Positions 2,545 to 17,000 of a stretch of DNA of 64,000 bases are shown here, piece after piece. The notes under the pieces are model-generated. The model worked only from the letters and a program-made list of their open reading frames with translations. It had not been told where the DNA came from and did no database searches. Origin of the DNA: Tsukamurella ocularis. GTDB taxonomy: Bacteria > Actinomycetota > Actinomycetes > Mycobacteriales > Mycobacteriaceae. Location of the stretch: NCBI RefSeq assembly GCF_024807615.1, contig NZ_JANUCJ010000003.1, positions 434,001-498,000 on the forward strand, given 5' to 3'. Numbering within the stretch: position 1 is the stretch's first letter; every line of letters begins with the position of its first letter. The position numbers and the translations under genes were made by a program.

Positions 2545-2547
2545 GTC

Positions 2548-3282
2548 GTGGGCGCTACAGCTGCGACGCTCTGGTTCCTCGACGTCGCGGAGCCGAAGGG
2601 CATTCTCGCGATCGTCGGCAGGCCCGACGAGGCCGCGTCCCGCGCGATCGCCGAGCAGGTGCTCGGCGAGCCCGTCGTCGGGCGGCCCGAGTCCCTCGCT
2701 CGCGCCGCGGATCCGATGCCCGGCCACGTCTACGTGGCCGCCTGGGGCGGGCTGACCGTGATCACCCACGCGGGCCTGCGCGTGGACCGGCCGAGCGAGC
2801 TCGACGAGTCCTGGTGGAACCTGGTCCCCGCACACCGCTCGTTCCTGCTGGTCACGGCCCCGGAACGGGCCGTCGGCGGGTTCGCGCTGCGCGCCGACGG
2901 AGCACGCCAGCGATCCTTCTCCGCCCACCCCGTCGACATCCTCGAGGACGAGGGCCTGCCCGAGCTCTTCGAGGGGCCATTCTGGGCCGGCGAGCACCCG
3001 CTGTCGTACGCCGAGGGCGTCACCCCGGACCCGCGCGCCCTGCCCTTCCACCCGATGGAGTTCGCGGAGCAGGCCAACCGCGAGATGCTCGGCTTCCGCT
3101 ACACGCACCCGCTCGCGCCGACCGACCTCGACCCCGCCCGGATCCAGGTCATCGACTTCGTGCCCGCCTCCCAGGAGCAGGTCGTCCAGGCCCAGGCCGA
3201 CGGTGCGCCGCAGCCCCCGGTGGAGCAGCCGGACCCCGGCTACGAGGACCGCGGCAGGGTCCGCAGCTTCTTCGGTTTCTGA
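2548..3282 (+). CDS. conserved hypothetical protein (DUF6928-like)
   Basis: A soluble 244-residue protein of unknown role, beginning 3 bases after the sepH stop on a GTG and so probably cotranslated with it. The N terminus MGATAATLWFLDV followed by a region rich in short beta-strand-like hydrophobic runs resembles the DUF6928 family. That is a tentative match made by eye. There is no signal peptide, membrane segment or obvious catalytic motif. The C-terminal 45 residues are Gln/Pro-rich and end in the basic VRSFFGF. It is followed by the intergenic three-hairpin repeat at 3326. Confidence 0.7.
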   Translation: MGATAATLWFLDVAEPKGILAIVGRPDEAASRAIAEQVLGEPVVGRPESLARAADPMPGHVYVAAWGGLTVITHAGLRVDRPSELDESWWNLVPAHRSFLLVTAPERAVGGFALRADGARQRSFSAHPVDILEDEGLPELFEGPFWAGEHPLSYAEGVTPDPRALPFHPMEFAEQANREMLGFRYTHPLAPTDLDPARIQVIDFVPASQEQVVQAQADGAPQPPVEQPDPGYEDRGRVRSFFGF

Positions 3283-3325
3283 GCCGCTCCGGGGCGACGC
3301 ACAGCGGGACCGGCTGCGGGCAGAA

Positions 3326-3421
3326 CGGGTGCGTGAGGCCATCCGCACCCGAAATGCGCCGTCGCACCCGGCATGCAGGGTGCGACGGGGCGAATCGGGT
3401 GCGGGAGCACATCCGCACCCG
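3326..3421 (-). repeat. three-hairpin 96-bp intergenic repeat, copy A
   Basis: Reading on the minus strand, three 26-bp imperfect palindromes begin at 3421, 3386 and 3351, separated by 9-bp spacers (period 35). Each is built from the heptamer GGGTGCG and its complement CGCACCC. The same geometry and similar spacers occur at 14061 and 15174 on the plus strand. It sits between two convergent genes (stops at 3282 and 3519), so it could also act as a bidirectional terminator. The rest of 3283-3518 shows nothing else I recognise. Confidence 0.85.
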
Positions 3422-3518
3422 AATTGACTGCGGAGCGCTGTATCTCACGCAGCGCACGCGCACAGCGAGAGGTAACTGAGCAGGCATTATGCGCGGGGCG
3501 CATTGCTGTTCCGCGCGA

Positions 3519-4778
3519 CTACTGCTCCCCGCGCGCAGCCGCCTCCCCGACCGTCGCTCCCCGCAAGACCTCCGCGGCGGCGGACCGTCGGAGCGCGTAG
3601 GCGCCGCAGAGGGCGCAGGTGACGGCGGAGACCACGCCGCCCACGAGCAGCGGCGCGGCGGGGGTGGTCACGTCGGCGATGGCGCCGAGCAGCGGCGCAC
3701 CCAGGGGTGTCCCGCCGAGGAAGGCGAGCATGTAGATGCCCATCACGCGGCCTCGGTACTCGGGATCCACCGACAGCTGCATGATGCTCATCGCGGAGGT
3801 GGTGAAGGCCATCTGCAGCAGCCCGACGAGTGTCAGCAGCACTGCCACGAGCCAGAACCACGGCGCCAGCCCCGCCAGCACGGAAGCCACGCCGAAGGCG
3901 CAGCCGCCCACGAGGCAGGTCCGCAGCGACGCCATGCCCGTCCGCTTCGCGGCGAGCAGCGCCCCGGTGAGCGTGCCGACGGCGAGCAGCGTCGACAACA
4001 GGCCGTAGGCGTCGGCGCCCAACCCGAAGCCCTGGCGCGCCAGGAGCGAGAGCGCGAGCGGGAAGTTGATGCCGAAGGTGGAGACGAAGAAGACCGCGAT
4101 CATCACCAGCGCCAGCTCACGCCGCCGCCGCACGTAGGCGAAGCCGGCCCGCAGCTGCCCCCGCGCTCGCGGCACCGGCGGCGCGGGGAACAGCTCGCTC
4201 GCCCGCATCAGCAGCAGCGCCGCGACGATCGCGCCCGTGAACACCGCGTTCACCGCGAACACCCACCCCGTGCCCACCCCGGCGATGAGCAGGCCGGCGA
4301 TCGCCGGCCCCACGATCCGCGCGGCGTTGAAGACCATCGAATTCAGGCCGATGGCATTGGGCAGCAGCTCCGGCCCCACCATCTCGATCGTGAACGCCTG
4401 CCGGAAGGGCCCGGCGATCGCCGTCACGCAGCCGAAGACGAAGGCCAGCACGAAGACATGCCACAGCTGCACCACCCCGGTGAGCGTGAGCACCGCGAGC
4501 ACGGCCGCGCACGCCGCCGCGGCGGTCTGGGTGAACATGAGTACCCGGCGCTTGTCGTAGCGGTCGGCGAGCAGGCCCGCCCAGGCGGAGAGGAACAGCG
4601 TGGGCCCGAACTGCAGCGCCATCACCACGCCGAGCACCCAGCCGCGGCCGTGGGCGAGGTCGAGTACCAGCCAGTCCTCGGCGACGCGCTGCATCCACGT
4701 GCCCACCAGGCTGACCGCCTGACCGCCGGCCCAGAGTCGGTAGTTCCTCGTTCGCAGGGAAACGAAGACGCTCGGCAC
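3519..4778 (-). CDS. MFS transporter, enterobactin-exporter-like (EntS/MFS_3 type)
   Basis: A 419-residue integral membrane exporter with about 12 hydrophobic segments. It has the MFS_3 pattern: an N-terminal RNYRLWAGGQ motif, GTWMQRVAEDWLV in helix 1, and the loop 2-3 motif GLLADRYDKRRVL. The substrate is unknown. I chose the GTG at 4778 because TACTAT at 4791-4786 lies 7 bases upstream (leaderless) and the preceding open frame up to 5072 has no transporter character and overlaps the next gene. The C terminus faces repeat copy A. Confidence 0.87.
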   Translation of the reverse strand: MPSVFVSLRTRNYRLWAGGQAVSLVGTWMQRVAEDWLVLDLAHGRGWVLGVVMALQFGPTLFLSAWAGLLADRYDKRRVLMFTQTAAAACAAVLAVLTLTGVVQLWHVFVLAFVFGCVTAIAGPFRQAFTIEMVGPELLPNAIGLNSMVFNAARIVGPAIAGLLIAGVGTGWVFAVNAVFTGAIVAALLLMRASELFPAPPVPRARGQLRAGFAYVRRRRELALVMIAVFFVSTFGINFPLALSLLARQGFGLGADAYGLLSTLLAVGTLTGALLAAKRTGMASLRTCLVGGCAFGVASVLAGLAPWFWLVAVLLTLVGLLQMAFTTSAMSIMQLSVDPEYRGRVMGIYMLAFLGGTPLGAPLLGAIADVTTPAAPLLVGGVVSAVTCALCGAYALRRSAAAEVLRGATVGEAAARGEQ

Positions 4779-4813
4779 TCGTCCGATAGTAGTCCTAAGT
4801 TTTCCGGAGGGTC

Positions 4814-5095
4814 TCAGACCAGCCCGCTGGAGAGGGCCACGACGGCCGCGAGCCAGGCCATCACGATCGCCCCTACGAAGCCTGCGCAGAAGAACCGCAC
4901 CACCGGCCGCCGACGGTACGCCGACAGCACCGGCACGGCCCCCGCGGTGCCCAGCACGAGGAGGAACATCCCCAGCCATCGGTTGACCACCATCACCGCC
5001 ACGAACAGCCCGGAGAGCACGCCGCCGGCGAGCATCGCCACCACCGCAGCGACGGCGGTGCCGGTGATCCACGGGGTGTAGCGCGGCGCGGTCAT
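4814..5095 (-). CDS. small integral membrane protein (DUF2537-like)
   Basis: A 93-residue protein with three hydrophobic segments (residues about 10-35, 38-56 and 66-92), predicted to sit in the cytoplasmic membrane. No catalytic motif; function unknown. The size and N-terminal PRYTPWITG resemble actinobacterial DUF2537 proteins, a judgement by eye. Its ATG overlaps the stop of the upstream methyltransferase by 4 bases (ATGA), so the two are translationally coupled. It ends 36 bp before the MFS start. Confidence 0.8.
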   Translation of the reverse strand: MTAPRYTPWITGTAVAAVVAMLAGGVLSGLFVAVMVVNRWLGMFLLVLGTAGAVPVLSAYRRRPVVRFFCAGFVGAIVMAWLAAVVALSSGLV

Positions 5096-5898
5096 GTGCG
5101 GGTGCGCTCGTAGAGGGCCAGCGCCGCCGCGGTGGCGACGTTGAGGGAATCGGTGCGGCGCGACATGGGGATCCGCGCGCGCACGTCGGCCGCCGCCATC
5201 GTCGCGGGATCGAGGCCCGGCCCCTCCGCGCCCACCAGGTAGGCCACCCGTGCAGGACCGCCCGCCATCGCCGCGGCGACCGTCGCCTCCCCCGACGGGG
5301 TCAGCGCCACCGTCCGGAATCCGTGCTCCGCCAGCACGCCCAGCCCCGCATCCGGCCACCCGGTCGCGGGCAGGTGCGCGAAGGGCACCAGCAGCACGTG
5401 ACCCATGGACACCCGCACCGCGCGCCGGTAGAGCGGGTCCGAGCAGCGCGGCCCGAAGAGCACCGCGTCGGCACTCAGCCCCGCACCGTTGCGGAAAATC
5501 GAGCCCAGGTTCTCGTGGTCGTTGACGCCCTCGAGCACGACGACGGTGTGCGCACCGTCCAACAGCTCCCCCGCGTCGAGCGGCGCCGGCCGGCGGGCCG
5601 CGGCGAGCACCCCGCGGTTGAGATGGAAGCCCACCACCCGCGCCATGAGGTCCGCGGTCACGAGGTAGCGCGGCACGTCCGGCGCCAGTCCCTCCAGCCG
5701 CGCCAGCTTCGACTCGCCGCCCATGATCGCGTGCGGCACGAAGCGCGACGCCAGCATCCGCTCCACCACCGGCACACCCTCGGCGAGCACGACGCCGCGC
5801 GCGAGGTCGGGCCGCTTGTCCGCGGAGGACAGGTCGCGGAAGTCGCTGAGCCGCGGGTCATCCGCGTCGTGAATCGGATAAATCGGTTGCGCCGGCAC
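5092..5898 (-). CDS. TrmH/SpoU-family RNA 2'-O-methyltransferase
   Basis: SAM-dependent ribose methyltransferase of the SPOUT fold, likely acting on rRNA or tRNA, 268 residues. An N-terminal RNA-binding part (about 1-110) is followed by the SpoU domain with motif 1 (NDHENLGSIFRNG), motif 2 (LVGAEGPGL) and motif 3 (IPMSRRTDSLNVATA), which form the trefoil knot and SAM pocket. It corresponds in type to Rv0881. It starts on GTG; TAGGCT at 5910-5905 ends 6 bases upstream, a leaderless promoter diverging from the Eis-like gene at 5923. Confidence 0.92.
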   Translation of the reverse strand: MPAQPIYPIHDADDPRLSDFRDLSSADKRPDLARGVVLAEGVPVVERMLASRFVPHAIMGGESKLARLEGLAPDVPRYLVTADLMARVVGFHLNRGVLAAARRPAPLDAGELLDGAHTVVVLEGVNDHENLGSIFRNGAGLSADAVLFGPRCSDPLYRRAVRVSMGHVLLVPFAHLPATGWPDAGLGVLAEHGFRTVALTPSGEATVAAAMAGGPARVAYLVGAEGPGLDPATMAAADVRARIPMSRRTDSLNVATAAALALYERTRT

Positions 5899-5922
5899 CC
5901 CACCAGCCTAATATCGAACTAC

Positions 5923-7074
5923 GTGATCGAGATCCGTACCGCGACCGAAGCCGACTGGCCCGAGATGTACGCACAGGACGTGCACGCCTTCGGCTCCCCC
6001 TTCGAAGCCGACGCCGCACCGCTCCTCCGGCGCACCCTGGACCTGGACCGGTTCGTCGTGGCCCGCGACACCACCGACGGCACGCTCGTCGGCGTGGCGG
6101 GCTCCTTCGCGCTCACCCTGACGGTGCCGGGCGGCGCGCAGCTCGCCGCGCCCGGCGTCACCTGGGTCTCGGTGGCGCCCAGCCACCGCCGCATCGGAGT
6201 GCTGCGGACGATGATGGACGAGTTGCACTCCCGCTACCGGGCCGCCGGCAACGCCGTCGCGATCCTCACCGCGAGTGAGGGCACCATCTACGAGCGGTTC
6301 GGCTACGGCGTCGCGACCATCGTCGACGAGGTGACCATCGCCCGTCGCACCGCCCGGCTGCGCACCCCGCTCCCCGGTCCGCTGCGCACCCGCATCACCG
6401 ACGCCGTGGCCGCACGCGAAGCCGTCGAGGACCTGTACCGGCGGTGGCACGCCGCAACCCCGGGTTCGGTATCCGCGGAACAGTTCTGGGAGCTCTTCCA
6501 CGCCGACCCGGAGTGGGCGCGCTGGGGCGGCACGGCCCGCAGGCTGCTGCTGCACCCGGACGGCTACGTCGCCTACCGCGTGGACGAGAAGGATCGCGCG
6601 CAACTCGACGACGTCCGCGCCCTCACCGACGAGGCCACCGCCGACCTGTGGCAGACGGTCCTCGGGCTCGACACCTTCGACGAGGTGACCGCCGACCTGC
6701 CGCCGGACCATCCGCTGCGGGAGATGCTCGTCGACCCGCGCTCGGTGAAGGTCACCGACCACAAGGACCGGCTGTGGCTGGCCTTCCTCGACGTGCCCGC
6801 CGCCCTCGAGGCCCGGACCTACGAAAGCGACGGCGATGTCGTGCTGAGCGTGGACGGCACCGCGTACCGGCTCACGGTCGACGGCGGCATCGCGCGGTGC
6901 CGGACCACGGAAGAGGCACCGTCGGTCTCGCTGAGCGGGCCGACGCTCGCCGGGCTGTACCTCGGTGCGGTATCACCGAGCACCCTGGCCCGCGCCGGCC
7001 GGATCGCGGGAAACTGGAAGGCGCTGCGGATTTTCGTCACCGCGTGTCGACCGGAACTCGGGACCTCGTTCTGA
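5923..7074 (+). CDS. Eis-like GNAT N-acetyltransferase
   Basis: An acetyl-CoA-dependent N-acetyltransferase with the Eis architecture: a GNAT domain (about 1-150, acetyl-CoA loop at VAPSHRRIGVLRTMM), a second degenerate GNAT region, and a C-terminal sterol-carrier-like domain (about 290-383). The length of 383 is close to the roughly 400 of Eis. M. tuberculosis Eis acetylates aminoglycosides and DUSP16; the substrate here is unknown. The start is the GTG at 5923 because TAATAT at 5909-5914 ends 8 bases before it. The C-terminal carboxylate typical of Eis is the phenylalanine of GTSF. Confidence 0.88.
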   Translation: MIEIRTATEADWPEMYAQDVHAFGSPFEADAAPLLRRTLDLDRFVVARDTTDGTLVGVAGSFALTLTVPGGAQLAAPGVTWVSVAPSHRRIGVLRTMMDELHSRYRAAGNAVAILTASEGTIYERFGYGVATIVDEVTIARRTARLRTPLPGPLRTRITDAVAAREAVEDLYRRWHAATPGSVSAEQFWELFHADPEWARWGGTARRLLLHPDGYVAYRVDEKDRAQLDDVRALTDEATADLWQTVLGLDTFDEVTADLPPDHPLREMLVDPRSVKVTDHKDRLWLAFLDVPAALEARTYESDGDVVLSVDGTAYRLTVDGGIARCRTTEEAPSVSLSGPTLAGLYLGAVSPSTLARAGRIAGNWKALRIFVTACRPELGTSF

Positions 7075-7109
7075 ATTCGCCGACCGCCCCGATTCAATGA
7101 CGGATAAGG

Positions 7110-7144
7110 AACGGCCCTATCGGAATCACACCGATAGGGCCGTT
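7110..7144. terminator. bidirectional intrinsic terminator
   Basis: A perfect 14-bp stem (arms 7110-7123 and 7131-7144, left arm AACGGCCCTATCGG) with a 7-base loop lies between two convergent stops at 7074 and 7173. There is no long U-tract, as is usual in high-GC actinobacteria. It is the strongest hairpin terminator in the window. Confidence 0.88.
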
Positions 7145-7172
7145 CGATATTCGATCGAGAATCCGACGGGAT

Positions 7173-7613
7173 TCAGCTTTGCTTCTCTTCGGCGGCAATG
7201 AGGCCGTTGAGAATTCCCACCGCGTCACCGAGCGTCGCGCGCTGCTCGGGCGGCAGATCGTCGAGCTTGCCGCGCAGCCACGCCTCGCGCGCCGCGGCCT
7301 CGCCCGTGATGACCTGTTCGCCCTCGTCGGAGAGGCTGACGATCACCTGGCGGCCGTCGGTGGGGTGCGGGGCGCGCCGGACCAGCCCCAGGTCGGCGAG
7401 GGAGGCGATGACCCGGGTCATCGACGGCGGCTGCACGCGCTCGCGCGCCGCGAGTTGCCCGGGCGTGAGCGGCCCGTCGTTAGCAAGCGCGTTGAGCGCG
7501 GAGAGCTGCGTCAAAGAGACGAGCGAATCGCGACGCCGGCCGCGGAGGTGGCGGGCGAACCGCACGGTGGCGAGAGCGAGCTCTCCCGCCAGCCGATCGT
7601 CATTGTCAGTCAC
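7173..7613 (-). CDS. MarR-family transcriptional regulator
   Basis: A 146-residue winged-helix repressor-type regulator. The helix-turn-helix is at about 50-75 (LTPGQLAARERVQPPSMTRV), followed by the wing with the conserved DGRQVIVSLSDEG motif; it is expected to dimerise through its N- and C-terminal helices. It corresponds to Rv0880c. The start is placed at the GTG of 7613 because TACTCT at 7625-7620 lies 6 bases upstream and the resulting N terminus matches the family; an in-frame ATG at 7628 is the alternative. It diverges from the DUF2530-like gene, and the palindrome GCAATTGC between them may be an operator. Confidence 0.9.
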   Translation of the reverse strand: MTDNDDRLAGELALATVRFARHLRGRRRDSLVSLTQLSALNALANDGPLTPGQLAARERVQPPSMTRVIASLADLGLVRRAPHPTDGRQVIVSLSDEGEQVITGEAAAREAWLRGKLDDLPPEQRATLGDAVGILNGLIAAEEKQS

Positions 7614-7668
7614 GGCGTTAGAGTACATCTGACTACTGCAATTGCGCGCATGAACCCCGGGAGTAACG

Positions 7669-7938
7669 ATGAACCTTCAAGGGAACGAGCCGGGAAACAC
7701 CGTCACAGCACCCGAACTTCCCCGCGCCGCGACCGAGCCCCGGCCCGTCGTCATCGCCGGGACGATTGCGTTCGCAGTGGCCCTCGTCATCACCCTGCTG
7801 GCCCGCGGGACCTTCGGCGACGCATGGATCGTGTGCGCGTGCGGCGTCGGCGTCGGCGCGTTCGGGGCCACCGTCCTCACCCTGCAGCGGCGGGCGGCCC
7901 TGCGCGGCGATCGGGGAGCACAGCGCGGTCTCGTGTGA
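7669..7938 (+). CDS. small membrane protein (DUF2530-like)
   Basis: An 89-residue protein with two transmembrane segments (about 28-45 and 50-72) and a basic C-terminal tail. The RPVVIAGTIAFAVALV segment resembles the DUF2530 family, which has no known function. It is divergent from the MarR gene, a layout also seen in mycobacteria, so it may be a MarR target. Its last 62 bases overlap the 3' end of the convergent PAP2 phosphatase gene. Confidence 0.78.
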   Translation: MNLQGNEPGNTVTAPELPRAATEPRPVVIAGTIAFAVALVITLLARGTFGDAWIVCACGVGVGAFGATVLTLQRRAALRGDRGAQRGLV

Positions 7939-8473
7939 GCCGCAGCACACCCAGCCCCAGAGCGACCACGAGAGCGCCGATCGTCCACCCCGCCACCACG
8001 TCGAGCAGCCAGTGCGCGGCCAGGTACACCCGGCTCAGGCCGATGGCGAATGTTCCGACCAGCGCGGCCACCAACGGCCACCGTCGGCCCGTCAGCGCGT
8101 AGGCGGCCACGGCAAAGGTGCCGAGGACCACCATCGAGTTCAACGCGTGCCCGGACGGGAAGCTCTCCGACGAGATCACCACGAGCCGGGGCGGGAACGG
8201 CGGCCGCTCCCGCCCGAAGAGAGTCTTGAGCACGACCATCAGCCCTAGCCCGAACAACTGGGTCAGGCCGCAGTACAGCGCCCAGTCCGCTCGCCTGGAG
8301 CGCAGCAGCAGGTAGAGGAACCCGGCGATGCCGATCGCCCACATGGACGCGGTGTTCCCCACCGTCGTGATCGCGCGCATCACCGCGGTGAGCGCGTCCC
8401 CACGGATCGAGAGCATCCAGTCGAGCGCGCCCTGATCGACGGGGTTGGGCCATGCGTCGCCGTCGGTCACCAC
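7877..8473 (-). CDS. PAP2-family membrane phosphatase
   Basis: A membrane phosphatase for lipid phosphates such as undecaprenyl pyrophosphate or phosphatidic acid; the exact substrate is not predictable. All three PAP2 signature motifs are intact: KTLFGRERP, SFPSGH and SRVYLAAHWLLD, giving the catalytic histidines on the outer face. There are five to six hydrophobic segments in 198 residues. The start GTG at 8473 (or the adjacent GTG at 8470) follows TACAGT with 7 intervening bases. It slightly overlaps the sacsin-like gene upstream (stop at 8467). Confidence 0.9.
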   Translation of the reverse strand: MVTDGDAWPNPVDQGALDWMLSIRGDALTAVMRAITTVGNTASMWAIGIAGFLYLLLRSRRADWALYCGLTQLFGLGLMVVLKTLFGRERPPFPPRLVVISSESFPSGHALNSMVVLGTFAVAAYALTGRRWPLVAALVGTFAIGLSRVYLAAHWLLDVVAGWTIGALVVALGLGVLRLTRDRAVLPDRRAGPPAAAG

Positions 8474-10986
8474 CGTCTCGACTGTACGTGGAGCACACCG
8501 TCCGCCACGACGTACGGGACGCGGCGCTCGGCCCCGCCGACCGCGACCACGAGCTCGTCGTGGACGTGCACCTCCGCCGCGTCGGGCAGTTCCCCGAGGG
8601 CCTGAGCCAGTGTGACGCCCGGGTGCGCGCCGCGCGCGAAGCGGTCGCCGGCGCCCAGGACCTCGACCGGTTCGGCGCCCGCGAGGGGCAGGTCCAGCGT
8701 GTCGGCGAGGTCCGCGGCCACGTCGAGCCCGCCGAAGACCAGCCCCGACGCGGTGAACCGCGCGTGCGGCACGTCGAGCACCGCGGCGTCGTCGGCGTCG
8801 AGGACCTCCCCGTCGATGCCCCGGACCCGGGCGGGGAGCTCCGCGAGCCGGTGCCCCGCGATCGCGCGGTGCGCGGCGATCACCACGGCGGGCGACGGCG
8901 TGCGCGCCGGATCGGCGAGCGCGTCGACCAGCACCTGCGCGTCCGCGTCCGTGCGGACGGCGTGCAGCAGCGCCGCCCGAAGCCGCGGCGCGGCGGGGTG
9001 CGTGCATGGGTCGAGCAGCCCGGCGAAGGTCTCGTCGTCGGGCGACCGCAGCCGGCCGAGCCCAGTGCGGGTGTGCAGCCACCAGGCGGTGTAGCCGTCC
9101 GGATCGTCCAGCACGCCGGGCAGTTCCGCCAGCAGCGCGTACGCGGGCTCCCAGTGCTCGACCAGGTCGAGGTCGCGGACCGCGATGAGCTCGTCGGGCT
9201 CCCCCGGCAGCTGCGCCCACCACTCGTCCGCGCCGTCGAGGCTCCCGTCGGGCTCGGTCGGCAGGGGCTCGCGGAGCACCCCGAAGGACCAGCCGACGCC
9301 GATCGCGCGCAGTGCCTCCGCGGGGTACCGCGCCTCGAAATCGGGGGCGACGGTGCCGTACGGGTGGTCCTCCCCCAGCACCGCGCGCAGCGGCGCGGCC
9401 GCGGCCAGCAGCTCGTCGGCGGGGTACAGCGCGCCGTCGTCGCCCGGGACGGGCAGCAGGCCCAGGAAGCTCGGCCCGACGGTGCCGCGCCCGATCAGCC
9501 CCAGCACGGCCTCGGTGAGCTCGAGATCCGCGTCGGTGGCGCCGGCCTCCCAGTCGATCCGGCCCACCTCCTCGCGCAACGCGGGATCGCCGAGCAGGTC
9601 CACGGGGCTCAGCCGCCGCGCGCCCGCCCGCTCCAGCAGCGGGTGCGCCGCCGCGGGGTGCACGATCCGCGCCCAGGTGACCAGCGCCAGCGCGTCGGCG
9701 TCGCCGGCGACGAGGCTCGCGCCGCGCGCCCCGGTCACCACGCGCCCATCGGCGAGCGGCACCGGCAGCGCGCCCAGGTCGTCGGCGGGCAGACGGGCGG
9801 CGTCGAGCGCGGTGTACAGCTCGCCGTACCAGGCCGGATCGCGGTCGCGCGGCACCGCGTCGGCGAGGTCCGCCGCGGTCAGCTCGCGGGCGCCGAGCGC
9901 CACCAGGCGCGCAGCGTCCGGCGCCGAGGAGTATGCGGGCAGCGCCAACGGAAGCGCCTCGCACAACAGAGTATTCAGCTCGACGGTGAGCCCGGGAAGC
10001 ACCGCGGCGCGGTCCGGCCGCAGCCGCGCACCGTCGGGCCCGGGGACCCAGGCGTGCCCACGCAGCTCGTCCTCGAGCGCCTCCCGCAGCAGGGCGTCGA
10101 CGGGGCCGGCCGGCGGCCGGCGCGGCGGCAGCAGCGCCATCGGGTCGGGCTGCGCGGCGACGAAGGAGGCGTAGCCGCGGACCGCGAGGGCGACGTCCGC
10201 GTCGGGGTGCAGGCGGCGGCGGTCCGGCGTAGTCGGCAGGTCGGCGATGACCCGCACGGGCAGGGTCAGCGGCTCGTCTGTGCGGGTGGGCGCGTGCAGG
10301 AACCGCGCGTCGGCGCCGATCACCCACCGCGCGTGCGGGCCGTGCCCGGTGACGAGGTCGGGGGTTTCGAACCGTTCGTCGCCGACGGTGACCGTCGCGA
10401 GCGCGGGCAGGTCCAGGAGCAGGTCCGCGGCCTGATCGGCGAACTCGGCGAGCAGCGCGGGATCCACGCCGACCAGCACGATCTCGGTCGCGAAGCCCGC
10501 GCGCGGGGGCGTGGCGACGGGGTACGGCAGGCGCATCGCGGCGACCTCGTCGAGGCCGGAATCGGCGCGGGAGCGCTCCGCGGAGAAGACGATCCCGCCG
10601 CCCGTCGACCGGATCTCGACCTGGTCGGTCACCGCCAGGACCGCGGCGAAGCCGACGCCGAACCGGCCGACGGAGGCACCGTCGGACTTGGGCGAGACGC
10701 GCAGCGCGGCGAGGGACGCGACCCCGGACTTCGACAGCGGGGCGCCGGTGTTGGCGACGTGCACGCCGTCGGCCTCGGCCCAGACGGCCAGCTCGCCGGG
10801 GATCCCGGCGGCGGTGGCGGCGTCGGCGGCGTTCTGCGCCAGCTCGACGGCGACGCGGTCGCGGTAGCCGACGGTGACCAGGTCCCGCTCGGCGGCGAGA
10901 TCCTCGGCCGCGCGGGTGGGCGAATCGCGCCAGGCGGCGAGGGTCGCGCGGCGCAGCGCGGCGGTACCGAACGGATCGGCGGCCAT
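8467..10986 (-). CDS. sacsin/HSP90-like ATPase domain protein
   Basis: A large 839-residue cytoplasmic protein. The first 200 residues form a GHKL (HSP90-type) ATP-binding domain: helix ELAQNAADAATAAG supplies the Asn, ANTGAPL the DxGxG-like motif, and GRFGVGFAAVLA the lid glycines. The rest has no recognised domain. This is the actinobacterial 'sacsin N-terminal ATP-binding-like' group; its role is unknown. The ATG lies 1 base after the stop of the DUF3027 gene, so the two form an operon. Confidence 0.85.
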   Translation of the reverse strand: MAADPFGTAALRRATLAAWRDSPTRAAEDLAAERDLVTVGYRDRVAVELAQNAADAATAAGIPGELAVWAEADGVHVANTGAPLSKSGVASLAALRVSPKSDGASVGRFGVGFAAVLAVTDQVEIRSTGGGIVFSAERSRADSGLDEVAAMRLPYPVATPPRAGFATEIVLVGVDPALLAEFADQAADLLLDLPALATVTVGDERFETPDLVTGHGPHARWVIGADARFLHAPTRTDEPLTLPVRVIADLPTTPDRRRLHPDADVALAVRGYASFVAAQPDPMALLPPRRPPAGPVDALLREALEDELRGHAWVPGPDGARLRPDRAAVLPGLTVELNTLLCEALPLALPAYSSAPDAARLVALGARELTAADLADAVPRDRDPAWYGELYTALDAARLPADDLGALPVPLADGRVVTGARGASLVAGDADALALVTWARIVHPAAAHPLLERAGARRLSPVDLLGDPALREEVGRIDWEAGATDADLELTEAVLGLIGRGTVGPSFLGLLPVPGDDGALYPADELLAAAAPLRAVLGEDHPYGTVAPDFEARYPAEALRAIGVGWSFGVLREPLPTEPDGSLDGADEWWAQLPGEPDELIAVRDLDLVEHWEPAYALLAELPGVLDDPDGYTAWWLHTRTGLGRLRSPDDETFAGLLDPCTHPAAPRLRAALLHAVRTDADAQVLVDALADPARTPSPAVVIAAHRAIAGHRLAELPARVRGIDGEVLDADDAAVLDVPHARFTASGLVFGGLDVAADLADTLDLPLAGAEPVEVLGAGDRFARGAHPGVTLAQALGELPDAAEVHVHDELVVAVGGAERRVPYVVADGVLHVQSRRW

Positions 10987-10987
10987 G

Positions 10988-11716
10988 TCAGGCCTGCTCG
11001 GCGGGGACCTTCTCGACGGCGCCGTCGTCGTAGGGCTCGTACGCGGGGCTCCCCTGGCCCGACGGTGCCGTGACCGAGGAGTGCGCGCCGCAGCCGTAGT
11101 GCGCGTGCACGACGCGACCGTCGGCCGAATACTCGTTGCCGCAGGCGCCGAAGGCCGCACCCAGCGCGCCGGCCAGCGGCAGGAAGAAGGCGCAGTCGCC
11201 GCAGTGGTAGCGGGTGGAGCGGGCCATCTCGGACTCCGGGCCGAAGTCGCCGGCCAGCCAGCGCTCGGCGGCGTCGATCCGGCCGATCCGCGACATCACG
11301 CGCTCGAGGTTCACGCCGATCTCGCCGGCCACGTCGTCGAGGGCCGGGTCACCCGACAGGGTGTGACCGGGCTCGATGCGCACGTCGTTCTCGCGGGGCG
11401 GCAGCGTATCGCCCGGGGCGAGGTCGCCCGCGCGGATCCGCTCCTCCCACGGCACCCACTCGGGGGCGGTGAGCGAGTCGGGTCCGGGCAGCAGCGCTGT
11501 CTCCGAGACCGTCAGCTCCCCGCCGGGGGTCGCGGCGATCACCGCGCACCACTGCCAGCCGCGGTACGCGGGTACGTCGGCCTCGAAGTAATGGGCCACC
11601 GCGAACTCGTCCTCGACCACGGTGGCGACGTGAGCGCCCACCCGGGCGCCCTCGTCGGCCTCCAGTACGGCGCGCGCGAGGTCGACCGCGGCGCCTGACT
11701 GCAATGTGGAACTCAC
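10988..11716 (-). CDS. DUF3027 family protein
   Basis: A conserved actinobacterial protein of 242 residues with unknown function. The C-terminal half has four cysteines in the pattern CGDCAFF, CGNEYS and HYGCGAHS, which looks like a metal-binding (zinc-ribbon-like) site. The N-terminal region carries the RGWQWCAVIAATP motif of the family. The start GTG at 11716 follows CACAAT with 7 bases between; it diverges from the MFS gene at 11812. The sacsin-like gene follows immediately, suggesting joint function. Confidence 0.87.
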   Translation of the reverse strand: MSSTLQSGAAVDLARAVLEADEGARVGAHVATVVEDEFAVAHYFEADVPAYRGWQWCAVIAATPGGELTVSETALLPGPDSLTAPEWVPWEERIRAGDLAPGDTLPPRENDVRIEPGHTLSGDPALDDVAGEIGVNLERVMSRIGRIDAAERWLAGDFGPESEMARSTRYHCGDCAFFLPLAGALGAAFGACGNEYSADGRVVHAHYGCGAHSSVTAPSGQGSPAYEPYDDGAVEKVPAEQA

Positions 11717-11811
11717 CCGTCCGATTGTGCCGGATGGCGGGCGCGCAGGTGCAGCCGGGCGGCACACGCCCCCGAAGACGGCACCGCCGCGGATGCGGAA
11801 CAATGGTCGGT

Positions 11812-13515
11812 GTGAGCGGTCATCCGGGGCAACAGCAGTATCCCCCCGACGAGCCCCGGCGCCGTCCGGGGCCGACGCCGCATGCCCACAGCGGGCAGTC
11901 CGTGCGGCAGGGGTCGGGCGGCGATGCGCGCCCGCAGTACACCTCGAACCACCATCTCCCCCCGCTCGAGGACACCCCGACCTCAGCCGACCGGCGCGCG
12001 GCCGAGGAAGAGCAGCGGCGGATGCCGCGCAAGATCACGGTCACCCGGGTGGCGGCCATGCGCAGCCGTGAGATCACCGAGGCCGGGATCGCGAAATGGC
12101 ATCAGGCCACCAAGGCCGACGGTGCGGACAAGTCCGGCCTCACGGCGCTCACCTACCCGGTGATCCTCAACAACGCCGTCGACGCCGCGATGATGGTGGC
12201 GCTGGCGAACACGCTGTTCTTCGCGGCAGCGCAGGCCGAGTCGAAGTCGAAGGTCGCTCTGTACCTGCTGGTGAACATCGCGCCCTTCGCGATCATCGCG
12301 CCGTTCATGGGGCCGCTGCTGGACCGCATCCAGCACGGCCGCCGGGTCGCGCTGGCGGCGTCCTTCGGGATCCGGGTCGCGCTGGCGGTGCTGCTCATCA
12401 CGAACTGCGAGTACGACCCGATCGCGAACACCGTCAACTTCGATCCGTGGGTGCTCTATCCCTGTGCGCTCGCGATGATGGTGATGAGTAAATCCTTCTC
12501 GGTGCTCAAATCCGCGGTGGTGCCGCGGGTGATGCCACCATCGATCGACCTGGCCCGAGTCAACTCGCGGCTCACCCTGTTCGGCCTGGTCGTGGGCTCG
12601 GGCGTGGGCGGCGCGATCGCCGCGGGCGCCGAGTTCGGGCTCAGCCGGATGCTGCACATCCCCGGCGGTATGTACGCGCTCATGGTTTTCGCGGTGCTCG
12701 GCGCCGTGATGTGCATGCGCATCCCGAAGCGGGTGGAGAGCACGGCGGGCGAGGTGCCCACCACCCTGTCGTACACCGGCGCGATGGCACGCGACGCGGA
12801 ACGGCAGGCGGACCGCGCGTACGCCGAACGCGGGCACGACACGGAGGGCAGCCGCGCGAAGCTCGGCGCGGCGTTCAAGAACCTGCGGGTGCCGCTCGGC
12901 CGCAGCGTGGTCACCGGACTGTGGGGCAACACCACGATCCGCGTGCTCACCGGCTTCCTCACCCTGTACGTCGCCTTCTACAGCAAAGCGGAGCAGGCGG
13001 CGGGCGGCTCCGCCACCGAGTCCCTGCTGATGATCGGAGCGGTCGGCGCGGCCGCCGGAATCGGCAACTTCATCGGCAACGGCATCGGCGCCCGGCTGCA
13101 GCTACCGAGGCCCGCGCGCATCGTCGTGCAGGCGACGGTCGCGGCCACCGTCGGCGCGATCATCGCGACGGTCTTCGGCAACCTCATCGTGGTCGCCGCT
13201 GTGACCTTCGTCGCGTCCGGGGTGTCGGCGCTTGGCAAGGTCTCGCTCGACGCGTCGATCCAGGACGACCTACCCGACGAGTCCCGGGCCTCCGCCTTCG
13301 GCCGGTCCGAGACGGCGCTGCAACTCGGCTGGGTCGGCGGCGCCGCGCTGGGTGTGCTGCTGCCGCCCACGCTGTGGATCGGCTTCGCGACCGTCGCCGC
13401 GATCATGGTCGTCGGCACCGTACAGACGGTGCTCACCTACCGCGGCGGCTCGCTGATCCCGAACTTCGGCGGCAAGCGGCCGGAACACGTCCCACCCACG
13501 ATGAACGGTGTCTGA
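11812..13515 (+). CDS. MFS permease with long cytoplasmic N terminus (Rv0876c-like)
   Basis: A 567-residue membrane protein. Residues 1-110 are a disordered, proline/glutamine-rich cytoplasmic extension (HPGQQQYPPDEPRRRPGP region); 12 hydrophobic segments follow from about 125 to 540. It resembles the M. tuberculosis Rv0876c permease in length and gene context; the substrate is unknown. AACAAT at 11799-11804 ends 7 bases before the GTG at 11812, favouring this start; an in-frame ATG at 11803 is the alternative. The DUF2771 gene overlaps its stop by 8 bases. Confidence 0.87.
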   Translation: MSGHPGQQQYPPDEPRRRPGPTPHAHSGQSVRQGSGGDARPQYTSNHHLPPLEDTPTSADRRAAEEEQRRMPRKITVTRVAAMRSREITEAGIAKWHQATKADGADKSGLTALTYPVILNNAVDAAMMVALANTLFFAAAQAESKSKVALYLLVNIAPFAIIAPFMGPLLDRIQHGRRVALAASFGIRVALAVLLITNCEYDPIANTVNFDPWVLYPCALAMMVMSKSFSVLKSAVVPRVMPPSIDLARVNSRLTLFGLVVGSGVGGAIAAGAEFGLSRMLHIPGGMYALMVFAVLGAVMCMRIPKRVESTAGEVPTTLSYTGAMARDAERQADRAYAERGHDTEGSRAKLGAAFKNLRVPLGRSVVTGLWGNTTIRVLTGFLTLYVAFYSKAEQAAGGSATESLLMIGAVGAAAGIGNFIGNGIGARLQLPRPARIVVQATVAATVGAIIATVFGNLIVVAAVTFVASGVSALGKVSLDASIQDDLPDESRASAFGRSETALQLGWVGGAALGVLLPPTLWIGFATVAAIMVVGTVQTVLTYRGGSLIPNFGGKRPEHVPPTMNGV

Positions 13516-14047
13516 ATTGATCAAGCCCAGCCCGAAGCTCCTCCTCGCCGGCGCGGTGTTCGCCGTCGCCGCGGCGGTGCTGTTCGCCTTCACCATCGTC
13601 GCCGGGCTCGAGAAGCGGGACGAGCCGAAGCCCCGACCCACGCTGCAGGCCACCGTCGGGAAGACGATGCTGAACGTCGCTCCGATGCAGTTCTGCACCA
13701 ACGTCCAGGCGTCGGCCTGTGACACTGCGCAGCGCCCGGTGAAGCTGCCGGTGGAGTTCGGCCAGGCGATCGTCATCTCACTGCCCGAATACATCACCGA
13801 GCGCCCCTGGTTCCTGACGGTGCAGCGCTACGACCCGAAGCGCGGCCAGGCGAAGCTCGACACGATCACCCACGTCGATCCCGCCGAGGCGACGCTCGTG
13901 CTCAAGTCGACCGAAGACCTGTGGGTCGCGGCCGTGGAGATCAACGTCCCGTCGCAGTACCAGGACGCGTCGGGCAACCTCATCGCCCAGGCCGTCTGGG
14001 GCATCGACACGACGCCCAAGGACTTCGCGCTCGTCCAGAAGCCGTAA
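13508..14047 (+). CDS. DUF2771 family membrane-anchored protein
   Basis: A 179-residue protein with one N-terminal transmembrane segment (about 11-32) and an extracellular beta-rich domain starting near residue 45; there is no lipobox cysteine. Two cysteines (CTNVQASAC) could form a disulphide outside the cell. Function unknown. The GTG start overlaps the last 8 bases of the MFS gene, so translation is coupled; the pair corresponds to Rv0876c-Rv0875c. The three-hairpin repeat copy B begins 13 bases after its stop. Confidence 0.85.
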   Translation: MSELIKPSPKLLLAGAVFAVAAAVLFAFTIVAGLEKRDEPKPRPTLQATVGKTMLNVAPMQFCTNVQASACDTAQRPVKLPVEFGQAIVISLPEYITERPWFLTVQRYDPKRGQAKLDTITHVDPAEATLVLKSTEDLWVAAVEINVPSQYQDASGNLIAQAVWGIDTTPKDFALVQKP

Positions 14048-14060
14048 CAGCCGCGCATTT

Positions 14061-14143
14061 CGGGTGCGGATGAGCTCCCGCACCCGCTTCGCCCAGTCGC
14101 ACCCGGCGTACCGGGTGCGGCTGCGCGGTTCGGGTGCGGATCG
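14061..14143 (+). repeat. three-hairpin intergenic repeat, copy B (3' truncated)
   Basis: Palindromes at 14061-14086 and 14096-14121, plus the left arm of the third at 14131-14140, follow the same 35-bp period as copies A and C. The right arm of the third hairpin is missing. From 14096 to 14143 the sequence is identical to copy C at 15209-15256 except for one base. It lies in the same orientation as copy C, and together they bracket the broken AbiEi/DUF559-like gene. Confidence 0.85.
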
Positions 14144-14223
14144 CTTGTGGATGGCCATTGTGGGCTGTGGATAACTCGCGGTGCAGAGCTGGTCGCGCCG
14201 CGCCGCTGCGGTTGAATCTCCGC

Positions 14224-15161
14224 ATGGGGGAGATCATGCCGCGGGCGCATCTGCGTTCGATCGGCTGGAGCAGCAATACGATCACGAAAGCGGTGCGGGC
14301 CCAGAAGCTGATCCGGTCAGCGCCCGGACTCTACATAGAACCCGGTGACACATAGAACCCGGTGACCGCAGCGCCGCCGAGTTGTACCGCACCAGAGTCA
14401 TCTCGACCATGCAGCGACGGCGCGGAGCGGCGAGCCATCAGAGCGCTGCGCAGCTGCACGACATCCCCTATTTCGAGCCTGATCGCTCACTGGTCCACAT
14501 CACAGTCGATCGGCCCGGCGGCGGAGGCGTGCGCGGGAAGAACTTCCTCCACCCGCGTCCGCTCCCGCCGGCGGACGTCGTCGAGGTCGACGGGAGCGCC
14601 GTCACCTCCCGCACTCGCACCGCCGTCGACGGCGCCATGACCGGCAGCCTCATCCGCGCGGTGATCGGTTTCGACGCGATCCGCCGCGTGCGACGGTATC
14701 CGTCGGCGGACGATCCGCTGCCTGTTCCCCGCGCCGAGATCCAGGAATGTCTCGACCGGTTGGGCCGTCGACAAGGCTCGGACGTCGCGCGACAGGGACT
14801 CGCTATGTCCGTGGACAAGAGCGAGTCCGCGGGTGAATCGTGGGCGCGGATGCAGATGCTCGCGTGGGGGCTTCCGTCACCCGAGCTCCAGGTCGGGTAT
14901 CACCTCGGCGACGCGACCTACTTCGCCGACTTCACCTTCGGCGAATCGCTCATCGGAGAATTCGATGGACGCGGCAAGTACGGCGAGACCGACGCGGAGA
15001 AGGCGGAGGCACTTGAGCGGGAGAAGGCACGCCAAGAGGAGTTCGAGAAAGCGGGCTTCGAGGTCGTCCGGTTCGGCTGGCGCATCCTCAAGCGCGACGG
15101 CGCTCTCCGTGCGCTGCTCAGCCCGTCCTTGCGGCGTCACGGGCTGCTCGAGGCGGGATAG
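14224..15161 (+). pseudogene. AbiEi-like winged-helix / DUF559 nuclease-fold gene, frameshifted by a 17-bp tandem duplication
   Basis: Two frames, 14224-14355 and from about 14367 to 15161, join perfectly if one copy of ACATAGAACCCGGTGAC (14333-14349, repeated 14350-14366) is removed, giving 306 residues. The first frame has the AbiEi-type winged helix (RSIGWSSNTITKAVRAQKLIRSAPGLY); the distal part has a DUF559/Vsr-like PD-(D/E)XK core (SAGESWARM, ADFTFGE, GEFDGRGKYG, FEVVRFGWRIL). Relatives are annotated as type IV toxin-antitoxin AbiEi-domain proteins, often without a proven partner. As it stands, the first frame stops at TAG 14353-14355. It is either a fresh null allele or a slippage-reversible one. 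No toxin gene lies beside it. Confidence 0.88.
14333..14366 (+). repeat. perfect 17-bp tandem duplication
   Basis: Two head-to-tail copies of ACATAGAACCCGGTGAC (14333-14349 and 14350-14366). Because 17 is not a multiple of three, the second copy shifts the frame of the AbiEi/DUF559-like gene and brings a TAG into frame. Deleting one unit restores a continuous reading frame across the joint (GLYIEPGD then RSAAELYR). Confidence 0.97.
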
Positions 15162-15173
15162 GCACGCGCAGAT

Positions 15174-15269
15174 CGGGTGCGAACGAGCTCTCGCACCTGA
15201 TTCACCCGGTCGCACCCGGCGTACCGGGTGCGGCTGCGCGATTCGGGTGCGGATCGGTTCTCGCACCCG
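15174..15269 (+). repeat. three-hairpin 96-bp intergenic repeat, copy C
   Basis: A full copy: hairpins at 15174-15199, 15209-15234 and 15244-15269, each 26 bp with a 9-bp spacer, matching copy A exactly in geometry. It begins 12 bases after the stop of the AbiEi/DUF559-like gene and ends 18 bases before the stop of the convergent cold-shock gene, so it may also serve as a terminator for both. Confidence 0.88.
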
Positions 15270-15287
15270 TTTTGCGCAACCGCGGAC

Positions 15288-15719
15288 CTAGGAGTCCAGC
15301 TCCCGGGCGATCTCGCGGAGCACCTTGGCGATCTGCTCGGAGGCCTTGCGGTCCGGGTAGCGGCCCTTGCGGAGCTCGGGCTGCACGCCCACGTCGAGCA
15401 GCTGGATCATGTCCTCGATCAGCACGTTCAGGTCCTCGGCAGGTCGACGGTTCGCCGCCGGCCGACGGCCGCGCTGGGCACCCGCCGCCGCGCCGCGCGA
15501 GACGCTGGGGGCGGGCTCGAGCACGGTCACCGTCAGCGCCTGCGGGCCGCGACGTCCGGCGGCCATGCTGAACTCGACGCGCTGGCCCTGCTTGAGCCCC
15601 TCGGCCCCGTCGGGCAGCGCGGAGGAACGGACGTACACGTCCTCCCCGCCCTCCTGGGAGAGGAAGCCGAAGCCCTTGTCCGTGTCGTACCACTTGACCT
15701 TGCCGGTAGGCACCGTCAT
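15288..15719 (-). CDS. cspB: cold-shock protein with C-terminal extension (CspB-like)
   Basis: A nucleic-acid-binding protein of 143 residues. Residues 1-67 form the cold-shock domain: [21 protein letters not shown] contains RNP1 (KGFGFL), with RNP2 replaced by DVYVRSSAL. The C-terminal 75 residues, absent from classical 67-residue Csps, hold an Arg/Ala-rich linker and a helical segment ([15 protein letters not shown]). This long form corresponds to Rv0871. The ATG is 73 bp from the divergent gene at 15793. Confidence 0.92.
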
Positions 15720-15792
15720 CACCCGCTCTGCACTAAGAACAACAAAACGCGCCCCGCGAACGGCGGGACGCACTGGGACTAGTCTAAAGGGC

Positions 15793-16014
15793 ATGGGCAA
15801 GTTCGTTTCCGTCGCCGTCTCCGCCGCGATCGCGCTGTTCGCGATCGGGCTGATCGCGATCGCGGCCCTCTTCCTCACGCCGCTCCTCGCGGGCGGAACC
15901 ACCGCCCCCACCTGGGTGTATGCGCTGACGCCGCTCGCGCCCGTGGGTTTCCTCGTCGGCGTGATCGCGGTGATCCTCGGCGGCCGGGCTGGAGACGGCG
16001 AGCCCCGGCCATGA
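15793..16014 (+). CDS. small integral membrane protein (Rv0870c position)
   Basis: A 73-residue protein with two hydrophobic helices (about 5-32 and 44-65), without recognised domains. TAGTCT at 15780-15785 is followed by 7 bases and ATG, a leaderless start. The stop overlaps the moaA start by 4 bases (ATGA), so it heads the moaA-moaD operon. The position matches Rv0870c next to cspB and moaA2; function unknown. Confidence 0.82.
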
Positions 16015-17000
16015 GGCCGCTGGTCGACCGTTACGGGCGCGTCGCGCGCGACCTCCGGGTCTCCCTCACCGACCGGTGCAACCTGCGATGCACCTATTGC
16101 ATGCCCGCCGAGGGCCTCCCCTGGCTCGCCAAAGACCACGTCCTGACGGGACCGGAGATCGACCGACTCATCACGATCGGCGTCCGCGATCTCGGAATCA
16201 CGGAGATCCGATTCACGGGCGGTGAGCCGCTACTGCGTGCCGACCTCGATCGCATCGTCGCGCATGCCGCGGCGCTGGAGCCGCGGCCCGAGATCTCGCT
16301 GACCACGAACGGGCTGTCCCTGGCCCGGCACGCGGCCACGCTCGCCGGGGCAGGCGTAGACCGCGTGAACGTCTCCCTCGACACCGTCGACCGAGAGGAG
16401 TACGCGAAGGTCACCCGGCGCGACCGCCTCGACGACGCCCTGGCTGGCCTGCGCGCCGCCGCCGGCGCCGGCCTCACTCCGGTGAAGGTCAACGCCGTCC
16501 TCGGCCCGGGGCGTCTCGACGACGCGCGTCCCCTGCTGCGGCTCTGCCTCGACGCGGGCTACGAGCTGCGGATCATCGAGCACATGCCGCTCGACGCCGA
16601 CCACACATGGGACCGGGACACCATGATCACGGCCGAGCACATCCTGGCCGAGCTGCGTCGCGAGTTCACCCTCACGCCCGACGGGGAGCCGCGCGGCAGC
16701 GCCCCCGCCGAGCGCTTCCTAGTCGACGGTGGTCCCGCGACGGTGGGTGTCATCGCCTCGGTCACGCGACCCTTCTGCGGCGACTGCGACCGCGTCCGCC
16801 TGACGGCCGACGGCCAGATCCGCACGTGCCTGTTCGCCGCCGACGAGACCGACCTCAAGCCACTGCTCCGCGGCGGCGCGTCGGACGAGGAGATCGCCGA
16901 CGCGTGGCTCGCCGCGATGCTGGGCAAGCAGGCCGGCCACGGCATCGACGACCCGTCCTTCCTGCAGCCCTCCCGTCCCATGAGCGCGATCGGGGGCTGA
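16011..17000 (+). CDS. moaA: GTP 3',8-cyclase MoaA
   Basis: A radical-SAM enzyme for the first step of molybdenum cofactor synthesis, rearranging GTP with MoaC to cyclic pyranopterin monophosphate. The N-terminal 4Fe-4S motif CNLRCTYC (Cys 23, 27, 30) binds SAM; the C-terminal second cluster is seen as [10 protein letters not shown] and TCLFA. The C terminus ends in the conserved Gly-Gly tail (MSAIGG) needed for activity. At 329 residues it has the normal family length. moaD follows after 4 bases. Confidence 0.96.

Follow-up and report, generated by a model that had tools for sequence, protein, structure and literature searches.

Repetitive extragenic palindromes (REPs) and their RAYT enzymes are the closest described parallel to the locus reported here. 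According to two reports, the enzyme gene is bracketed by its own extragenic palindromes, gene and palindromes co-evolve, and solitary palindrome copies are correlated with the gene (PMC2817692, PMC8266576). In the type IV toxin–antitoxin system AbiE, the promoter of AbiEi contains two 23-bp inverted repeats to which the protein binds, and four such repeats are bound by Rv2827c (PMC7319586). The subject of this study is a 64,000-nucleotide stretch of the Tsukamurella ocularis genome (NZ_JANUCJ010000003.1, positions 434,001 to 498,000; hereafter the window), in which an initial annotation made from the sequence alone had noticed three copies of an intergenic palindromic repeat, here called family W. 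Between two of these copies lies a gene whose product combines an AbiEi-type winged helix with a predicted PD-(D/E)XK nuclease domain, and similar gene-plus-palindrome pairs occur in other actinobacteria. We consider it rather probable that the repeats supply the cis component of a bipartite system that resembles REP/RAYT but is built on an unrelated nuclease. The features concerned are as follows, with positions in the window.

3326..3421, minus strand: solitary family-W palindromic element, six heptamers with spacing 17-19-15-19-17, between convergent genes (a DUF6928 gene ending at 3282 and an MFS gene at 3519-5072, minus strand)
14061..14143, plus strand: left (upstream) family-W element, four-site core and first outer heptamer; last outer heptamer missing
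14146..14174, plus strand: DnaA-box-like pair between the left element and the gene
14146-14154, plus strand: TGTGGATGG, DnaA-box-like with two mismatches
14166-14174, plus strand: TGTGGATAA, exact DnaA-box-like motif, 20 bp from the motif at 14146
14224..15161, plus strand: gene for an AbiEi-type winged-helix and predicted PD-(D/E)XK nuclease protein, frame broken; assigned from domain models and open relatives
15174..15269, plus strand: right (downstream) family-W element, complete; precedes a convergent cold-shock-domain gene

A gene bracketed by its own palindromes

The single gene between the copies at 14061 and 15174 (14224-15161) is broken here by a 17-bp tandem duplication at 14333-14366. 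The frame is open in two relatives, L027 of genome G012 and L028 of G013, which are 77% and 74% identical over the C-terminal 175 residues. In both genomes the same family-W elements lie in the same places around the open gene, and the left element is truncated in the same half-hairpin as in the window. Because the family-W gene is broken here, the family-W elements of this genome are probably relics or dependent on another source. Other Tsukamurella members of the gene family are bracketed by different palindromes, with the motifs GGGGGAC, CGCTGCC, TCCCTAG and others.

Eighty loci were kept for comparison, 20 of them from Tsukamurella. Of the remaining 60, 56 were taken (L193, L202, L203 and L205 were left out) and two of these (L155 and L179) ran off their contigs, giving 54 outside loci from Williamsia, Gordonia, Rhodococcus, Cryobacterium, Nakamurella, Aldersonia, Prescottella and other genera. 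The Tsukamurella flank sets comprised 44 of the listed gene places. At 31 of the 54 outside loci the upstream and downstream 360 nt shared a segment scoring above all 1,080 dinucleotide shuffles, compared with 3 of 318 control window pairs of the same separation that passed a slightly lower mark. Palindromes were visible by eye in most of the shared segments of 14 displayed outside loci. A first control, in which flanks from different loci were paired, was dropped, since it is inflated by orthologous sites that lie in opposite orientation (0/54 loci exceeded its 99th percentile and 36/54 its 95th), and we therefore searched for matching sites with opposite gene orientation. A second cut of the flank pairing, from which 10 broken, short or uncertain genes were left out, as they were from the co-divergence test described below, gave paired flanks in 32/36 Tsukamurella loci and 30/52 loci of other genera. 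These comparisons give good support for a link between palindrome and gene and show the pattern to be a general one, with similar pairs in other actinobacteria.

No phage carriage was found in viral contigs or phage records. Plasmid carriage was rejected, the only plasmid records being three from T. tyrosinosolvens, all predicted to be non-mobilizable. Two loci deserve separate mention. In the downstream flank of L049 (G006), almost identical tandem units lengthen the CGCTGCC array, which suggests local amplification. The flanks of L170, recorded as 'Kitasatospora arboriphila' NRRL B-24581, are about 98-99.5% identical to those of Williamsia muralis NBRC 105860, and this record is probably contaminated or misnamed.

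The palindromes are heptamer arrays with a 19-bp period

The initial annotation placed three copies of one geometry at 3326-3421, 14061-14143 (truncated) and 15174-15269, and both the coordinates and the heptamer spacing were confirmed. The two complete copies contain six CGCACCC/GGGTGCG heptamers at identical spacing (17-19-15-19-17), starting at 3327, 3344, 3363, 3378, 3397 and 3414 in one and at 15175, 15192 (variant CGCACCT), 15211, 15226, 15245 and 15262 in the other. The left copy has heptamers at 14062, 14079, 14098, 14113 and 14132 and is without the sixth. Copies 3326 and 15174 are 81% identical (expect value (E) 3.4e-20, DNA search). As the whole element is itself near-palindromic, it matches on both strands. 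The DNA search gave eight family-W places in the genome of the window at E<=3e-8. A covariance model built from 16 copies gave nine places in this genome at E<=1e-3 and matches in 10/16 Tsukamurella genomes, far more than chance would give. The annotation had named a total of only three copies as refuting its reading, and the family exceeds that number.

The original description, three hairpins with a 35-bp period, is correct as a description. When the 16 copies are aligned, the commonest base accounts on average for 94-99% of a column in the arms, 57-83% in the loops and 63-69% in the spacers, so that the spacers, said to be alike among copies, are only moderately so. The arm columns hardly vary. 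RNAalifold favours a single long hairpin over three, and the element can be read both ways. The family-W core is CGCACCC-19-CGCACCC-15-GGGTGCG-19-GGGTGCG, to which one outer motif of opposite polarity is added on each side. A motif array can thus be read, among other ways, as three hairpins, and the part of the layout common to other families is the inner four-site core, 19-15-19.

This geometry recurs under unrelated sequences. At many loci the copies of the best shared 7-mer form two inverted pairs, typically with spacing 19-15-19, and this 7-mer was counted at least six times (maximum 8) at 42/98 loci compared with 0/134 control pairs. An exact direct repeat of a 7-mer at 19 bp was present in 35/87 Tsukamurella flanks versus 3/223 control windows, and in 39/108 flanks from other genera versus 2/319. 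In other intergenic regions, as delimited by crude open reading frame (ORF) calls, it was present in 0/12 and 2/45 cases, respectively. Between lineages the arrays share geometry, not sequence. The 19-bp period, its generality, the cognate gene between the second and third copies and the DnaA-box-like motifs had all escaped the initial annotation.

An AbiEi-type protein with a predicted nuclease domain

PADLOC models of AbiEi match 25/25 members of the gene family (with the match spanning about residues 10-137 in the first one), and Pfam AbiEi_4 matches 12/25 members of one set and 19/28 of another at E<=0.1. The AbiEi region is the part of the protein best matched by models, and a plasmid-collection record names one such gene a type IV toxin-antitoxin AbiEi family antitoxin-domain protein. 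In the C-terminal domain, E199, Q217, D230, E240 and K246 are invariant among 25 Tsukamurella sequences. An AlphaFold model with a mean predicted local distance difference test (pLDDT) score of 92.4 gives this domain the order helix, three strands, helix, strand. The PD-(D/E)XK core has the order alpha-beta-beta-beta-alpha-beta, and the residues together with the predicted order of secondary structure fit such a core, which makes the domain a predicted nuclease. Pfam DUF559 and MTES_1575 match it weakly (best E for DUF559, 9.2e-4). No Pfam transposase model matched the bracketed gene. PHROGs gave weak matches, a PDB sequence search gave one match at E 0.14, and NCBIfam gave one irrelevant match. 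The ratio of nonsynonymous to synonymous substitution (dN/dS) was 0.09-0.23 in 16/17 gene pairs and 0.51 in one little-diverged pair, and because of the low values the gene family looks to be under purifying selection.

DnaA-box-like motifs upstream of the genes

TTRTCCACA is the DnaA-box consensus. With at most one mismatch it was present within 200 nt upstream of the gene at 39/44 Tsukamurella loci and 38/54 other loci. Downstream it was found at 2/44 and 2/54 loci, against shuffle expectations of 1.4 and 2.0. At least two such motifs lie upstream at 17/44 and 25/54 loci, respectively, and their spacing is 18-20 bp in 36/45 cases. Agreement with the consensus suggests that DnaA may bind these upstream motifs.

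Arrays vary with the protein and with the presence of the gene

Arrays of different loci were compared by matching upstream flanks with the downstream flanks of other loci, a score above 35 being counted as a match. Among Tsukamurella pairs, cross-flank matches were obtained for 28/29 at >=75% protein identity, 23/55 at 60-75% and 0/546 below 60%. The corresponding figures for other genera were 13/20 at >=75%, 6/26 at 60-75%, 3/87 at 50-60% and then 0/1,193. Spearman correlations of flank with protein identity were 0.395 (Tsukamurella) and 0.141 (others), both above all 2,000 permutations (p<=0.0005). We conclude that the array sequence co-diverges with the protein.

Besides family W, two sister families were counted in the 16 Tsukamurella genomes: family T has 52 places in 9/16 genomes, and family S 20 merged places in 8/16 (sites of S and W were merged by hand, and W was called at E<=1.5e-7 plus one flanking copy). 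Solitary counts, from which copies beside a cognate gene were excluded, were higher where the gene was present (Mann-Whitney p 0.015 for T, 0.0039 for S and 0.037 for W; kinship uncorrected). For family S, the array was present in 7/7 genomes with the gene and 1/9 without (Fisher p 0.0014).

Presence and absence of arrays at orthologous sites

Site comparisons were carried out over 16 genomes each, and one solitary element was traced for empty sites across the genus. This element belongs to family T and is present in five genomes. Genomes G002 and G013 differ at its site by exactly 89 bp, the ends of the difference being the ends of the palindrome, with a 2-bp GG overlap. G008 and G009 have a different array at the same site. 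At the DUF2771/cold-shock site, which holds the bracketed gene, the order array-gene-array was found in G000, G012 and G013, a lone array in G009 and a lone hairpin in G005. The two genes nearly abut in G001, G010 and G011, a small gene lies between them in G003 and G014, and the remaining six of the 16 genomes have other DNA. The gene-less and empty orthologous sites of family W are not base-exact. The annotation had preferred a moving or amplified unit to independent terminators, and the dispersed copies, the sites with and without an element and the 89-bp empty site bear this out, the clean empty site being one of a sister family and not of family W.

The interval of the 3326 copy has a full element in G005, a full element after a small gene pair in G012, a partial element in G006 and a half-hairpin remnant in G013; no clean empty site could be read among the 16 genomes. 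At L103 (G008) and L111 (G012) the place that the palindrome takes in the window, after the DUF6928 gene, is occupied by a small gene pair that by eye looks like a VapBC-type toxin-antitoxin.

The search for opposite orientations found one site at which Rhodococcus wratislaviensis and R. jostii have genes with 57% identity, inverted relative to each other, with flanks that are 92% and 94% identical but swapped. Further cases were found in Williamsia and in one Gordonia pair (proteins 44% identical). Downstream of rpoC, a member of the gene family lies within 1.5 kb at 12/30 loci, the 30 being the best matches among 110 genomes and hence a biased sample, in which L350 had 113 nt only. Of the rpoC loci without a member, L341, L345, L346 and L349 show 19-bp 7-mer repeats within about 260 nt. 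At L341 (G121) two TTCGCAC arrays about 1.3 kb apart flank a membrane-protein gene, whose product we take to be LtrA-like, with no recognisable nuclease; possibly the gene is cargo, or these are two solitary arrays.

A proposed two-part system and its alternatives

The most likely explanation, in our judgement, is the REP/RAYT-like system named at the outset, whose trans half would be the orphan protein, with its AbiEi-type winged helix and, fused to it, the PD-(D/E)XK-like nuclease domain. The AbiEi-type domain would bind the array motifs as two to four protomers per array, which is plausible because AbiEi proteins bind promoter inverted repeats, and the nuclease would cut at or beside the array. 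Repair would then copy one of two units into new intergenic sites: a non-autonomous one of about 90-105 bp, the palindrome by itself, or an autonomous one of about 1.2 kb, palindrome-gene-palindrome. The upstream DnaA-box-like motifs suggest that expression or activity may be tied to the initiation of replication. Operation as a mobile system is probable, the cutting and the movement themselves being inferred. Solitary arrays are apparently mobile, and since entirely empty sites and gene-less presence and absence exist, the array itself seems to move. We are more hesitant about a further step, which we offer tentatively: that this is a new class of prokaryotic mobile element independent of HUH and DDE enzymes, in which an AbiEi-type PD-(D/E)XK nuclease may spread 19-bp-spaced arrays and itself, timed to replication through the DnaA-box pair, with recognition diversifying rapidly between paralogues.

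Mobilisation by a RAYT or an IS200-type enzyme was rejected on a search for Y1 HUH transposases (PF01797), the only transposases searched for, which found none in the 16 Tsukamurella genomes at E<=0.001 and was positive in 5/14 control genomes.

Several observations weigh against the proposed system. DDE or other transposases able to move palindromes in trans lie outside a search that covered Y1 enzymes. The evidence for a nuclease consists of conserved residues, secondary-structure prediction and weak Pfam matches. Insertion and precise excision are indistinguishable at the single clean empty site, and the 89-bp site shows no clear target duplication, the 2-bp GG overlap being that of one site. 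Flank pairing was not significant at 23/54 outside loci. Array presence was not significantly associated with the gene for family T (6/7 genomes with it, 3/9 without; Fisher p 0.060) or family W (3/3 and 5/13; p 0.20), G005 and G006 hold nine and six solitary family-W copies without a cognate gene, and the gene-versus-array statistics are uncorrected for relatedness among the 16 genomes. Many family-T copies occupy sites common to several species, and movement would therefore be old or rare.

Among the alternatives, the arrays may be operators: the protein would regulate its own gene from the upstream array, the dispersed arrays would be a small regulon or decoys, the downstream copy would have arisen by recombination, and no mobility enzyme would be involved. 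The binding of promoter inverted repeats by AbiEi and Rv2827c (PMC7319586) is in line with this, as is the prominence of the AbiEi region in model matches. Solitary copies are, however, often between convergent genes and away from promoters (24/40 for T and 8/20 for W, with crude ORF calls), and it is not easily seen why operators should entail a downstream copy, presence/absence polymorphism or conserved residues of nuclease type. We regard this account as unlikely.

Equally improbable to us is a homing-like selfish gene whose target is the solitary palindrome. The nuclease would cut it, the gene would be copied in by recombination with duplication of the palindrome, and the arrays would spread by other means. 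The array without a gene in G009, set against array-gene-array in G000, G012 and G013, looks like such a target, and matching sites hold different relatives in different orientations. Loss of the gene by recombination between its flanks would, however, mimic the state of G009, and the entirely empty sites of G001, G010 and G011 and arrays present or absent without the gene speak against homing.

That the palindromes are bidirectional transcription terminators or insulators, multiplied through drift and gene conversion, with AbiEi genes nearby by chance, would suit their bias toward convergent gene ends but is very improbable, given that five terminator-like sites (GC stem and T run) were found in 2500-16200 and none at the three copies, that at several rpoC sites separate terminator-like hairpins lie between rpoC and the arrays (by eye), and that the array-gene association is far above controls.

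A single enzyme family, the RAYTs, is associated with REPs. If the proposed two-part system is real, it would be a second one with the same population pattern and an unrelated predicted nuclease, and a dedicated enzyme with extragenic palindromes would be a recurrent solution. Actinobacterial genes now annotated as toxin-less AbiEi-type antitoxins would also acquire a function, and protein sequence, matching motif and fixed 19-bp spacing would together form a data set for learning how AbiEi-type proteins choose their DNA.

Comparison with known systems

The initial annotation knew of no described family with this layout. Our literature searches, limited in that most subscription papers and preprints were outside their reach, agree and found no description of a link between palindromes and an AbiEi nuclease. 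Rfam gave two matches below the gathering score, neither at the window copies.

Iteron plasmid origins combine direct repeats spaced by about 19 bp, DnaA boxes and a winged-helix protein. The present loci have direct repeats of that spacing, DnaA-box-like motifs and a winged-helix protein, but their repeats are in inverted pairs, the protein is a predicted nuclease rather than a replication initiator, and the plasmid records number only three. Miniature inverted-repeat transposable elements (MITEs) are short inverted-repeat insertions, and free-standing homing endonucleases are intergenic nuclease genes. The present loci resemble both in these respects; unlike in those elements, there is no clear target duplication at the one clean site, and each gene has its own palindrome pair.

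AbiE type IV toxin-antitoxin systems share the AbiEi-type N-terminal region and inverted-repeat DNA beside the gene. The present system differs in its extra nuclease-like domain, in arrays that lie on both sides and are dispersed, and in a 19-bp period instead of 23-bp AbiE repeats with gaps of 3, 4 or 13 bp (PMC7319586). No AbiEii (DUF1814) toxin gene lies beside the gene of the window, whose neighbours are DUF2771, MFS and cold-shock genes, and none is annotated within 2.5 kb in L355.

The likeness to REP/RAYT lies in a dedicated gene bracketed by two cognate palindromes (32/36 Tsukamurella and 30/52 other loci) and in a repeat abundance that tracks the presence of the gene (Mann-Whitney tests; Fisher significant for family S only). 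The enzyme, in contrast, is an AbiEi winged-helix protein with a PD-(D/E)XK-like domain and not a Y1 HUH transposase. A REP is a single palindrome of 20-50 nt tagged by GTAG/CGTC, whereas the family-W element is 96 nt long with six heptamers and without GTAG: GTAG/CTAC is in none of the three window copies, and CGTC/GACG is in copy 3326 and in neither other. Further differences are the motif array with its 19-bp period, the DnaA-box-like motifs, and a number of solitary copies that is at most about ten for each family in a genome instead of hundreds. As neither a Y1 transposase nor a GTAG tag was detected, the system is not a member of REP/RAYT but, by analogy, would work like one.

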